Source: a virus
DNA: 60,984 nucleotides
Direction: 5' to 3' (one strand)
Virus record (IMG/VR): IMGVR_UViG_3300009161_000006
Span: 1 to 60,984 of that record
Shown one piece after another: positions 42,268-46,781 of the stretch. The notes below the pieces were generated by a model. The model did not search any database, had not been told where the DNA came from, and saw nothing but the letters and a program-made list of their open reading frames with translations. The translations under genes and the position numbers were made by a program. The first letter of the stretch is position 1, and each line of letters opens with the position of its first letter.

Positions 42268-42746
42268 GTACAATAATCGGATATAGAAAGTATAAAACTA
42301 AAATAATTTACTTTTTTTATTTGCCTATGTCCTGAAAGCCCCGCCACCACTACGTTTCAGGGTTAAAAAAAGTTTTGTTCCGTATGTTATGTTAGTGGTT
42401 TTGATAGGATAGGCAGGGCTTAAACCCTTACTGCTACTACGTTTCAGCGCTTTTAGTGTGCTTGTCCCTTGCTATATTGAATCGTGTGTGCGTGTGCGTG
42501 GCTAGTATGTACGGGTGTGTGTGCGTGTGCGTGTGTGCGTGTGCGTGGGTGCATACGTGGGCGTATGTGCGTGTGCGTTACGTGTGTGCGTGTGTGTGCG
42601 TGTACGCATGGGAAAAAGCCAAAAAAACGAGCAATGACGGGGCTTTCAGCACCCCACTGCCCTAAAAAAATGTCGTTTCCGTGCGTGGACCGGCGACGCC
42701 ATACCATACCATCATCCAACTACTACTATTATCTAATAAAATTTTA
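42268..42746. other. Candidate replication origin / divergent control region
   Basis: About 480 bp without genes between divergent promoters. It contains a 12-bp direct repeat ACTACGTTTCAG (42349-42360 and 42436-42447), and a 12-bp inverted repeat CTGAAAGCCCCG / CGGGGCTTTCAG (42332-42343 and 42638-42649) that brackets the GT/GC tract. A local hairpin CCTGAAA...TTTCAGG spans 42331-42361. GC content is visibly higher than anywhere else. Transcription direction switches here. No initiator box was proven. Confidence 0.5.
42484..42611. repeat. Alternating purine-pyrimidine GT/GC tract
   Basis: About 128 bp, almost wholly GTGTGCGTGTGCGT-type dinucleotides with short interruptions. Such sequence can adopt Z-DNA under negative supercoiling (established property). 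Long open frames across it in several directions are repeat artefacts. Confidence 0.8.
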
Positions 42747-43288: not shown

Positions 43289-44899
43289 ATGATAGATAGT
43301 GCAGGGTATTCACCCAAGAACTTACATTTCGGCGAAGAGGGCCGAAAGAAACTAATCAAAGGAGTAACAACAATGTCTAATGCTGTGAAGAGCACATTAG
43401 GACCGGGCGGTAATACTGTTTTAATAGAGTCGGTAAATCACTTACGTGGTATAACTGTAACTAAGGATGGTGTAACTGTTGCTCGTTCTATAGATTTGTT
43501 AGACCCTGTTGAGAATTTAGCGGTACGTATGATGAAGGAGGCTGCGGACCAAACTGCAACGAGTGCAGGAGACGGTACGACTACGGCTATTGTATTAACG
43601 GAGTCATTGGTATTGGGTGGATTGGAGTTAATAACTATTGACCACAACAGAACGGAGGTTTTGCGACAGCTATCGGAGATAACTAATAAGGTGGTGGAGA
43701 GATTGCGAGATAAGTCTACTGATGTAACGGATGATATGATAGTTGACGTTGCTACTATATCTGCGAACAATGACAGGAGTATAGGAACGATAATAGCTGA
43801 GGTATATGGTGACGTTGGTAAGACGGGCATGGTAACGGTTGAGCGTTCACAGACATCTGACACATATTCAGAGACGACAACGGGTATTAAGGTAGACAGG
43901 GGGTATAGTTCGCCATTATTCATTAATGACCAAAAGCGAGACGAGTGTATATTTGAGGACACCATGATATTGGTAGCTGACGTAGACATAAATAATATCT
44001 TACAGATAGAGAACATATTAAAGCCAATTATAAATGAGGGCAAGAAATTATTAATTATAGCTCCGTGTAATGCGAATGTGGTGAACACATTGGCGGCAAA
44101 TGTAATGAAGGGTAATTTGAAGGTATGTGTAGTAGCTCCTCCAAATTTTGGATATAAGCAACATGAATTAATGCAAGACATCGCCATAAGTGTTGGAGCT
44201 ACTTATTTTAGTGAGGGTACGGGTGATGATTTGAGTCATATTACTTATGATGATTTGGGTCATGCTGCCAAGGTTATAATCGGAAGGGAGAAGACTGTTA
44301 TATTAAAGTCAAGTGAAAACATAAACCAATCCGACATTGACGAGAGGGTAAAGCAATTGCGAGATGCTCATACACTTGCAAAGCGGAAAGATGACAAAGA
44401 CTTTATTATTGAGCGCATAGCGTCATTAACGGGTGGTATAGGTGTAATATTTGTTGGTGGCAATACTGACTTGGAGCAGAAGGAGTTGTATGACAGGGTT
44501 GATGATGCTGTGTGTGCTGTTCGTTCTGCATTAGAGGAGGGTATATTAGCAGGAGCAGGTAAGGCTTTGTATGAGATTAGCTTCGATGATTTTTTTGATG
44601 GCAAGTTGAGTAAGGAGCAAGAGGTAGCGTGTATTATTTTAAGGGAAGCCTTAAGGTCTCCATTGGTTCAGATATTAAATAACGCAGGGTTATTCGTTGA
44701 GAAGATTTACAGTGGTGATATTGCAGATGGCCATGGTTACAACTTAAAGACATCTGAGATGGGTGACTTGATTGAGATGGGTGTCATTGACCCACTAAAA
44801 GTTACTCGTAGTGCATTACAGAACGCAGTTAGTGTAGCTACTACAATACTAAGCACAAATGCCATTATTACAATGGCACGAACATATGAGTCACAATAA
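43289..44899 (+). CDS. groEL: Phage-encoded chaperonin GroEL
   Basis: 536 aa, near full length (E. coli 548). Conserved chaperonin landmarks: STLGPGGNTV (35-44), VTKDGVTVA (57-65), ATP-site GDGTTT (94-99), the apical segment GYSSPLFIN, LLIIAPCNANV and the PNFGYKQ region, GGIGVIFVGGNTDLEQKE, and RVDDAVCAVR with the catalytic Asp (D398 equivalent), then LEEGILAGAGKAL. The C-terminal GGM tail is missing. It should form the folding chamber, with GroES as lid, for capsid or other phage proteins. Codon use looks like its neighbours. Its stop overlaps the HNH start. Confidence 0.95.
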   Translation: MIDSAGYSPKNLHFGEEGRKKLIKGVTTMSNAVKSTLGPGGNTVLIESVNHLRGITVTKDGVTVARSIDLLDPVENLAVRMMKEAADQTATSAGDGTTTAIVLTESLVLGGLELITIDHNRTEVLRQLSEITNKVVERLRDKSTDVTDDMIVDVATISANNDRSIGTIIAEVYGDVGKTGMVTVERSQTSDTYSETTTGIKVDRGYSSPLFINDQKRDECIFEDTMILVADVDINNILQIENILKPIINEGKKLLIIAPCNANVVNTLAANVMKGNLKVCVVAPPNFGYKQHELMQDIAISVGATYFSEGTGDDLSHITYDDLGHAAKVIIGREKTVILKSSENINQSDIDERVKQLRDAHTLAKRKDDKDFIIERIASLTGGIGVIFVGGNTDLEQKELYDRVDDAVCAVRSALEEGILAGAGKALYEISFDDFFDGKLSKEQEVACIILREALRSPLVQILNNAGLFVEKIYSGDIADGHGYNLKTSEMGDLIEMGVIDPLKVTRSALQNAVSVATTILSTNAIITMARTYESQ

Positions 44900-45374
44900 G
44901 TGTAAGAAATGTGGAAAAGATTTTATTCCTGAAAAGGGATTAGTAAGTCATTGTAGCTTATTTTGCAGGAACTCAAGGCCTTGTACTGAAGAAACAAAGT
45001 CTTTAAAGAGTAATGTGATAAAAAAAAATTGGGCTGATGGAGTGTATGCAAATACTGATTGGAGCAAAGTAAATAGTAATCCTGATAAGATAAAAAATCA
45101 AATTGAGACATGGGAGAAAAAGATAAATGATAGGTTATTAAATGGTGAGCCTTTGCATGTACAAACAGTAAGAAAAATATTAAGAAAAAGGCGCGGTGAT
45201 TTTTGTTATATATGTGGTCTATCAGATTGGTTAGGGAATAAAATATCTCTTGAGACTCATCACATTGATGGCAATAATAAAAACAATACTATAAATAACT
45301 TACAAATACTTTGTCCAAACTGTCATTCACAAACTAATAATTATAGAGGTAAAAACATAAAACAAAAAAAATGA
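44886..45374 (+). CDS. HNH endonuclease between groEL and groES
   Basis: 162 aa from ATG 44886, overlapping the groEL stop by 14 nt. An N-terminal zinc-finger-like segment (CKKCGKDF...HCSLFC) is followed by helices and a C-terminal HNH core: CYICG, LETHHIDGNNKNN, NNLQILCPNCHS (CxxC...HH...N...CxxC...H). It is a free-standing homing-type nuclease. Its TGA overlaps an ATG (ATGA at 45371-45374) that begins the old groES 5' end, so the HNH gene fits neatly into the coupled operon. Confidence 0.85.
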   Translation: MSHNKCKKCGKDFIPEKGLVSHCSLFCRNSRPCTEETKSLKSNVIKKNWADGVYANTDWSKVNSNPDKIKNQIETWEKKINDRLLNGEPLHVQTVRKILRKRRGDFCYICGLSDWLGNKISLETHHIDGNNKNNTINNLQILCPNCHSQTNNYRGKNIKQKK

Positions 45375-45392
45375 AACCAATCGGGAAATACA
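45371..45392 (+). pseudogene. groES: Remnant 5' end of groES, displaced by GIY-YIG insertion
   Basis: ATG followed by codons for KPIGKY, the same residues as in the intact groES (LKPIGKY at 46085-46105). The 19 bp 45374-45392 equal 46089-46107. Translation from this ATG would now run out of frame into the nuclease gene and stop after about 35 codons. Confidence 0.8.
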
Positions 45393-45402
45393 AAAAAAGT
45401 TG

Positions 45403-45410
45403 TATATTTG
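45403..45410 (+). promoter_or_regulatory. GIY-YIG gene -7 box (TATATTTG)
   Basis: TATATTTG five bases before the ATG of the nuclease, giving a nearly leaderless transcript. It lies inside the inserted segment. Confidence 0.6.
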
Positions 45411-45414
45411 TAAT

Positions 45415-46089
45415 ATGGAAAATAATAAGGTTGTATATCTACACAGAAAAAAAACAGACAATTCTGTATTTTATGTAGGTATGGGGAATATGAAAAGAGC
45501 CTATTCTAAACAAAGGTCTGTATGGTGGAATAAAATAGTTGATAAATATGGATATATAATTGAAATATATAAAGACGGATTAATTAAAGAAGATGCTTTT
45601 AAAATAGAAATAAATCTTATTGAGAAATATGGTAGAATAGATTTGAAAAATGGTCAGCTTATTAATCAAACAATCGGTGGGATTACCGTAGAAGGATTAT
45701 GTAATAAAGTTTTAAATAAAAAAAGTAAATCTTTAAAGGCCGTAGTAAGAAATAAAGAATGGAATAATAAAATATCTAATTCTTTAAAAGGTAAGGCTAA
45801 AACAAATATCCATAAAGAAAATTTATCTAAAGCAAATCTAGGTAAAAAACATACAGAAGAAACTAAAGAAAAAATGAGATTATCTAATAAATCAAAAACA
45901 ATAACAGCAAAGGCAATATCTTGTTATGATTATTATTCAAATGAGATTCTTTTTAATTTTGATTCTATTAGAAATGCAGCAAAAGAATTAGGTTGTAAAG
46001 AAACTTCTATATGTAATAATTTATCTAATAGAAGTCGTAGTATTAACAGTAAAACATTAAATAAAAAAATAAAATGCATAAAAATTTAA
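45415..46089 (+). CDS. GIY-YIG homing endonuclease with NUMOD modules
   Basis: 224 aa from ATG 45415. The N-terminal domain has the VYLHRKK...FYVGMG pattern (a GIY-YIG variant), then WWNKIVDKYGYIIEIYKDGL and EDAFKIEINLIEKYG with the catalytic Glu. The C-terminal part has a NUMOD3-like segment LGKKHTEETKEKMR and a NUMOD1-like FNFDSIRNAAKELGCKETSI DNA-binding unit. The last codons overlap the rebuilt groES start (46074) by 16 nt. Confidence 0.85.
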   Translation: MENNKVVYLHRKKTDNSVFYVGMGNMKRAYSKQRSVWWNKIVDKYGYIIEIYKDGLIKEDAFKIEINLIEKYGRIDLKNGQLINQTIGGITVEGLCNKVLNKKSKSLKAVVRNKEWNNKISNSLKGKAKTNIHKENLSKANLGKKHTEETKEKMRLSNKSKTITAKAISCYDYYSNEILFNFDSIRNAAKELGCKETSICNNLSNRSRSINSKTLNKKIKCIKI

Positions 46090-46343
46090 AACCAATCGGG
46101 AAATACATTATTGTAAAAAATATTGACGAAGAGATTAAGACTGAGTCGGGATTAATTTTATCGGGGGAAGACGCAAGTCAGTTAAGATATAAACGTGCGA
46201 CTGTTCAGTGTTCAGGCACTGATGTGGCTAACATAAAAGAGGGCGATGAGATATATTACGACAAGGGTCGTAGTTTCACGATGATAATCAATGACATTCA
46301 GTGCACCATAATTGTAGAGGGGGACGTAGTGGTGGTCTTATAG
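46074..46343 (+). CDS. groES: Phage-encoded co-chaperonin GroES
   Basis: 89 aa, slightly shorter than E. coli GroES (97). NLKPIGKYIIVKNI (4-17) is the first strand. IKTESGLILSGEDAS (about 21-35) is the mobile loop with the hydrophobic SGLIL tip that binds GroEL. KRATVQCSG, then IKEGDEIYYDKG and a C-terminal VVVVL strand complete the ring fold. The start ATG (MHKN) is newly formed by the GIY-YIG insertion; the ancestral start was at 45371. It is the partner of the upstream groEL. Confidence 0.9.
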   Translation: MHKNLKPIGKYIIVKNIDEEIKTESGLILSGEDASQLRYKRATVQCSGTDVANIKEGDEIYYDKGRSFTMIINDIQCTIIVEGDVVVVL

Positions 46344-46781
46344 TTCGTTAACGGTCCTTTTCTTACCTTTAAAAGTCTTATTCATTTCCATTATCATATT
46401 CCTATAGACTTTGTCGGTGTACTTGACATTTTTATTAAACATTGTATTGCTTTTACCCATAGGTATTTCGTTACCGCTTAGTAGGTTGTAGATTAATTTA
46501 ATTAGGCAGCTTGTTTTGTAAGGCAGGGTATATACTGCTCTACTTCCTTTGAATCCTCTACGGAACAAAACTATCCATCCATCTCTTAGCAATTGGTCAA
46601 ACCTAGTCACGTTCCAACTCATAAGTGAGTCAAACTCTTTAAACTTATCTTTATCAAAGTAGTGTTCTGAATTCAAGAACAGTATCATATCAAGGTCTGC
46701 TTGGGTCAAACCATACCTTTCTTTAACATAATATCTTATTACTCTCCAATACTTAAGATAATCATCAGTTATTTTTCTCAT
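46338..46781 (-). CDS. Winged-helix DNA-binding protein, lone leftward gene
   Basis: 147 aa. YYVKERYGLTQADLDMILFL, then FDQLLRDGWIVLFRRGFKGSRAVYTLP give a MarR-like winged helix (helices then a wing with basic residues), followed by a Lys-rich C-terminus. A similar gene occurs near structural genes in crAss-like phages (recollection). It is the only leftward gene in the rightward block and overlaps the groES end by 6 nt. A role in switching the block to late expression is plausible. Confidence 0.65.
   Translation of the reverse strand: MRKITDDYLKYWRVIRYYVKERYGLTQADLDMILFLNSEHYFDKDKFKEFDSLMSWNVTRFDQLLRDGWIVLFRRGFKGSRAVYTLPYKTSCLIKLIYNLLSGNEIPMGKSNTMFNKNVKYTDKVYRNMIMEMNKTFKGKKRTVNEL

Follow-up and report, generated by a model that had tools for sequence, protein, structure and literature searches.

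In the record of an uncultivated virus we found an endonuclease gene lodged in the first codons of groES, and we consider it probable that this gene belongs to a mobile homing unit whose dedicated site is the 5' end of phage groES. Such a unit would carry the remnant of an old groES start, then a promoter and a gene for a GIY-YIG-type endonuclease, and finally a new start codon for groES, usually along with one to four extra codons. The whole record (60,984 bases, referred to here as the window) was analysed, and the relatives compared with it were metagenomic contigs. Close relatives have empty sites, the same anatomy recurs at the same site in five other lineages, and the nuclease has spread more recently than the genes next to it.

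Layout of the locus and empty sites in relatives

The genes from groEL to groES lie on the + strand. The groEL gene (phage Cpn60, 536 aa, positions 43289-44899; Pfam PF00118, 1e-53) is overlapped at its tail by the start of an ORF for an HNH endonuclease (162 aa, 44886-45374; PF01844, 22.8 bits against a cutoff of 21.4). The TGA stop of the HNH ORF overlaps the ATG of a dead groES start in an ATGA (45371-45374), the coupling that the earlier note on this DNA had described. This remnant, or stub, is 22 nt long (45371-45392, + strand; -44 to -23 relative to the nuclease start codon) and consists of the ATG and the first copy of a 19-mer, AAACCAATCGGGAAATACA. The frame from its ATG reads MKPIGKY and then continues into unrelated sequence without groES, giving 35 residues in total. 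The nuclease gene follows (45415-46089, 224 aa). It begins with an ATG at 45415, a longer alternative being a TTG at 45400, and its PHROG match and motif residues point to a GIY-YIG-type homing endonuclease with a NUMOD-like C-terminal DNA-binding part.

The functional groES (46074-46343; Pfam Cpn10 PF00166, 1.8e-09) overlaps the nuclease gene by 16 nt. Its new ATG (46074) lies within the 3' end of the nuclease gene and gives the N terminus MHKNLKPIGKY, both as had been read before, so that a working groES ORF with a rebuilt start was preserved despite the insertion. The second copy of the 19-mer (46089-46107, + strand, an exact match) is in frame in this gene and begins on the final base of the nuclease stop codon. 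The 19-mer is present exactly twice in the window (45374-45392 and 46089-46107), on the two sides of the nuclease gene where it had been reported. By chance 0.02 matches were expected, two copies were obtained in 0/100 shuffles, and no further match was found in the whole window at up to three mismatches.

On the other side of groES, a convergent ORF (46338-46781, - strand) overlaps the end of the gene, and its counterparts adjoin groES in other carriers. It has a weak match to PHROG 17028, a family of unknown function, and the ORF at the equivalent position in MW202828 is annotated as 'repressor protein'. A long alternating tract of the GTGTGC type was seen 5' of groEL (42484-42620), and the ORF pattern near the start of L142, also 5' of groEL, suggests a similar tract there.

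The stretch between the two 19-mers, i.e. the minimal inserted unit (696 bp, 45393-46088, + strand), was absent from the relatives L001 to L014. The closest of them, L001 and L002 (amino-acid identity of 90-91% in groEL and 93% in groES), have neither nuclease, and their groES start ATGAAGCCAATCGGGAAATACATT lies 2 nt past the groEL stop, giving the junction groEL-TAATATGAAGCCAATCGGG. L003 to L014 have the HNH gene, lack the second nuclease and have a single groES start, ATGCAACCAATTGG. The earlier note had claimed that the nuclease gene was inserted into the start of groES, and had proposed to look in relatives without it for a single copy at a direct junction. This is what was found, with the one start following groEL in L001/L002 and HNH in L003-L014, and none of the nuclease-free relatives L001-L014 carried both copies. 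A site that is occupied in some genomes and empty in their relatives fits the pattern of a free-standing homing endonuclease gene.

In more distant relatives the slot between groEL and groES is occupied by a wide variety of small ORFs. Varied cargo genes were seen there in L022, L026, L132, L133 and L140, including a putative AsnA-like ORF of about 281 aa, and this variety indicates that the slot is a hotspot for gene gain. The HNH gene of the window (44886-45374) is probably a second mobile nuclease at the same junction. The window is more similar to L001/L002, without HNH, than to L003-L014, with HNH; by eye its HNH is strongly diverged from that of L003-L014, despite groEL being about 89% identical. 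Across all collected loci, groES-start stubs without a groES frame were found only 5' of the nuclease family, the exceptions being one unrelated chance match and one contig end.

Recurrence at the same site and possible roles of the remnant

Using the nuclease protein, the 19-mer and the family motif as queries, we located the nuclease family (61-71% identical) at exactly the same groES site in L141, L142, L150, L151 and L152, where the L150 lineage also includes L146, L147 and L149 and comes from two samples. In scans of viral sequences, which rest on short patterns and may miss divergent members, the motif YGRIDLKNGQLIN matched these lineages only among 2.9 million contigs, and a groES start followed by Lys was found in unit carriers only. 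No relative was found in the bacterial genome contigs searched. The gene 5' of the unit is HNH in the window, groEL in L141, L150 and L151, and other ORFs in L142 and L152. The upstream remnant is kept in four of the five other lineages (L141, L142, L150 and L151) and is missing from L152. With the window this gives five units in which a displaced groES start stands together with a functional replacement.

In the six lineages the groES start overlaps the nuclease end by 16, 16, 4, 10 and 10 nt, or, in L151, follows it after a 2-nt gap. The N termini of GroES read MHKNL-KPIG, MSKNL-KPIG, MSKF-QPIG, MSL-KPIG and MAL-KPIG, and MRAIG, of normal length, in L151. GroES of E. coli starts with MNIRPL, and a few extra N-terminal residues are therefore likely to be tolerated.

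We infer that the endonuclease most likely recognises and cuts the conserved first groES codons (ATG AAA CCA ATH GGN AAA TAY) of phages without the unit. Repair from a carrier would then copy the unit into the cut groES, with recombination in or near the 22-nt groES-start homology on the left side and in groES on the right side. The old start of the recipient would be reduced to a stub from which GroES is no longer made, and groES would restart at the ATG in the 3' end of the nuclease gene, which probably makes the insertion nearly harmless. In this mechanism groES survives because the unit would carry its own start codon. That a 22-nt stub could suffice as left homology is relevant in view of the great variability of the gene 5' of groES. 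One-sided events with microhomology are known from intron homing in T4 (PMC2988022). With the carried start and the 22-nt stub as markers, the boundaries of homing repair can be tested.

Between remnant and nuclease gene we found TATATTTG (45403-45410, + strand), which fits the Bacteroidota -7 promoter element (TAHHTTTG). The element is present in all five stub-bearing units, always with exactly four bases between it and the start codon of the nuclease. Elsewhere in the window this spacing to a start codon was found at one other place, inside the nuclease gene itself. A distant homologue in L153/L154 has a similar layout, with TATAATTG, four bases and ATG. Both the consensus and the spacing to the transcription start are taken from PMC6847099; in Flavobacterium johnsoniae the G of the -7 element is at -5. 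With this G at -5, the transcript would begin directly with the start codon and would be leaderless. The gain of coupling to the endonuclease that the earlier note had read for groES is possible; as the unit has its own putative promoter, the nuclease could be expressed independently of the operon.

A tentative possibility is that the remnant serves as an operator, to which the nuclease binds and so represses its own leaderless promoter. I-TevI of T4 does this by binding a copy of its homing site 5' of its promoter, an operator which resembles the homing site at 15/20 bases (PMC2988022). The remnant lies immediately 5' of the promoter at a fixed spacing in all five units, and it is still close to the consensus of natural groES starts (15-19 of 19 bases) though it no longer codes for GroES. 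However, if the remnant were refreshed from each recipient at each homing, it would be conserved equally well. An operator role concerns the function of the remnant and does not exclude that the whole is a homing unit. Slightly more doubtful is a reading in which both copies are functional, the downstream one rebuilding the N terminus, the upstream one being homology arm and operator at once, and the repeat permitting precise loss. If true, the stub would serve as a minimal homology arm in the invasion of genomes whose upstream genes are unrelated, and the near-identical direct repeat would allow a precise loss that restores the original groES.

The repeat itself could also be a 19-bp target-site duplication left by a one-off insertion in this phage or a recent ancestor, which we regard as unlikely. 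In its favor, the copies of the window are identical (19/19) and both match the single copy of the nearest relative at 18/19 positions. However, stub and rebuilt copy are identical in the window only. They share 14/19 bases in L141, 15/19 in L142, 15/19 in L150 and 11/19 in L151, as compared to a mean of 14.6/19 for random pairs of natural groES starts, 0.9% of which are identical. The same arrangement thus exists in four lineages with copies differing at 4-8 of 19 positions, and in a fifth lineage without the remnant. Because of these differences the repeat is not simply a fresh 19-bp duplication, and the claim that the insertion in the window had itself duplicated 19 bp was not supported as it stood; target-site duplication was also rejected as a general cause. 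Transposons leave identical repeats at each insertion, whereas four of the five repeat-bearing lineages have non-identical copies and the site is the same every time. We know of no GIY-YIG enzyme whose staggered cut leaves a 19-nt overhang, which also counts against a one-off target-site duplication. I-TevI cuts 23 and 25 nt from its insertion site, 2 nt apart (PMC2988022). A unique insertion event is thereby largely refuted.

For a homing unit, either the repeat belongs to the unit, or the stub represents the old start of the recipient and the other copy is derived from the donor. The exact identity in the window could stem from a recent homing event, from recombination within the repeat or from two natural alleles that happened to be alike. 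We compared the rebuilt copies with those of the nearest empty relatives. In L141, 6 of the first 24 bases differed as compared to 22/225 (p = 0.037), an excess that would be expected for a donor-derived tract. The corresponding values were 1/24 as compared to 27/225 in the window, and 0/24 in L152. These counts are suggestive of a foreign tract at the rebuilt start of L141 only, the starts of the window and L152 looking native. Such a mixture may be due to repair tracts of varying length.

Spread, decay and apparent loss of the unit

Identities between the six lineages are 61-78% (protein) and 71-82% (DNA) for the nuclease, as compared to 48-73% and 55-69% for groES. Synonymous sites were assessed by comparing codons at identical amino acids with shuffles within each amino acid. 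The synonymous-codon identity of the nuclease exceeded the saturation level in each of the 15 pairs (z 2.4-6.2), even where groEL or groES was saturated; the low GC3 of the nuclease (0.12-0.24 as compared to about 0.4) is a confounder here, for which the within-amino-acid shuffles are the sole correction. In most pairs groES was at saturation, and groEL was at saturation or slightly above it, except for L150-L152. By this test the nuclease spread more recently than its flanks. groEL firmly rejected the best tree of the nuclease, and the nuclease did not reject that of groEL (AU p = 0.16); the alignment of the nuclease is not long enough for such a rejection, and it is therefore the synonymous-site comparison that carries the case for horizontal spread. 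The simplest reading of these data is that the nuclease was exchanged after the carrier phages had diverged. An alternative is that it is ordinary cargo, inherited vertically in the groEL-groES slot, and that the groES-like sequence 5' of it is a coincidence. This would suit the many different small ORFs of that slot in relatives but is highly improbable, since other cargo ORFs leave a single groES start, stubs occur with the nuclease only, and the silent sites of the nuclease are less diverged than those of its flanks.

The unit of L152 lacks the stub, the promoter and about 24 residues of the nuclease, and looks degraded. A further state was seen in L056, which has no nuclease and whose groES start reads ATGAAACCA-ATGTCATTAAAGCCC-ATAGG. 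This start (L056:2104-2140, ATGAAACCAATGTCATTAAAGCCCATAGG) has two in-frame ATGs, and its middle 15 bases together with ATAGG match the rebuilt start of L150 at 20/20 positions. L160, a near relative of L056, has the plain start ATGAAACCAATAGG. The groES start of L056 is a probable scar from deletion of a nuclease unit, to judge from this match. Extended groES starts without a nuclease were also found in L103 and L045, which may be loss scars or naturally longer N termini. Empty, occupied, degraded and lost states thus all appear to be represented in comparable genomes, which makes insertion, decay and loss directly traceable.

Recoding of CCA to CCC in the rebuilt start was considered as a form of self-immunity and rejected, as CCC is also found in unrelated loci and the window is not recoded. 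CCC was present in 2/5 carriers and 5/91 others (Fisher p = 0.04; p = 0.0007 when presumed loss scars are included among the carriers), which is a hint only.

Identity of the nuclease and comparison with known systems

The nuclease matches PHROG 314 'homing endonuclease' (3e-16), has weak NUMOD1/NUMOD3 matches in its C-terminal part, and has annotated homing endonucleases among its homology matches. The Pfam GIY-YIG model was matched neither by the window protein nor by its family. By motif reading, VYLH...FYVG, which resembles the GIY...YIG strand pair, together with R28, E65 and N84 is invariant in the six members and three distant phage homologues; Y8, H10, F19-Y20-G22, R28, E65 and N84 are common to homologues from Proteus, Flavobacterium and other phages. 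One of the homologues (L239) has a weak LEM-3_GIY-YIG match (0.0016). The AlphaFold model of the nuclease was poor (mean pLDDT 52), and a search of solved structures with the nuclease gave chance matches only. We assign the nuclease to the GIY-YIG type with good but not complete confidence.

Nearest in logic are endonuclease ORFs of fungal mitochondria (mORFs) that come with replacement gene ends, as described for atp6 of Allomyces and for atp6, atp9, cox2 and nad3 of Glomus (PMC3630166). There too an endonuclease ORF within a conserved gene brings a replacement end, the native end is left as a displaced remnant, and the host gene stays usable, as groES does here. The fungal mORFs replace the 3' end, i.e. 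the C terminus, of mitochondrial genes, whereas the phage unit replaces the 5' end with the start and first codons, and it duplicates only about 22 nt, unlike the mORFs. By analogy, the groES unit can be regarded as their mirror image.

The nearest known in kind are the Seg nucleases of T4, which are likewise free-standing phage GIY-YIG genes beside conserved genes and spread by cutting and copying (PMC2988022), as is presumed for the groES unit. The seg genes are intergenic and cut hundreds to thousands of bp away (PMC2988022), whereas the gene described here lies within the first codons of its presumed target and carries the new start of that target, which Seg does not. The known free-standing endonucleases of T4 sit between genes, unlike the groES unit. 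I-TevI of the T4 td intron is also a GIY-YIG nuclease with a modular DNA-binding part, and has a sequence like its homing site just 5' of its own promoter (PMC2988022). However, there is no intron here, and groES is repaired by a new start codon and not by splicing. In the literature searched, which covered a minority of subscription papers, no description of such an arrangement at groES was found; one jumbo-phage genome paper came up as mentioning both a homing endonuclease and groES. The groES unit is a new variant among free-standing GIY-YIG homing elements, and supplying a new start would join introns and inteins as a means by which a homing endonuclease can reside within a conserved gene and leave it intact.

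Distant homologues of the nuclease were located at other sites. In the Proteus phage vB_PmiM_ZX7 (L239, MZ424863) a NUMOD-containing GIY-YIG homologue, 37% identical over 161 aa, lies between terS and terL (L239:417-1178), and its 3' end overlaps the terL start by 23 nt. The site differs from that in the window, but here too the nuclease gene overlaps the start of the next gene, and it possibly reflects the same start-rebuilding habit at another gene.
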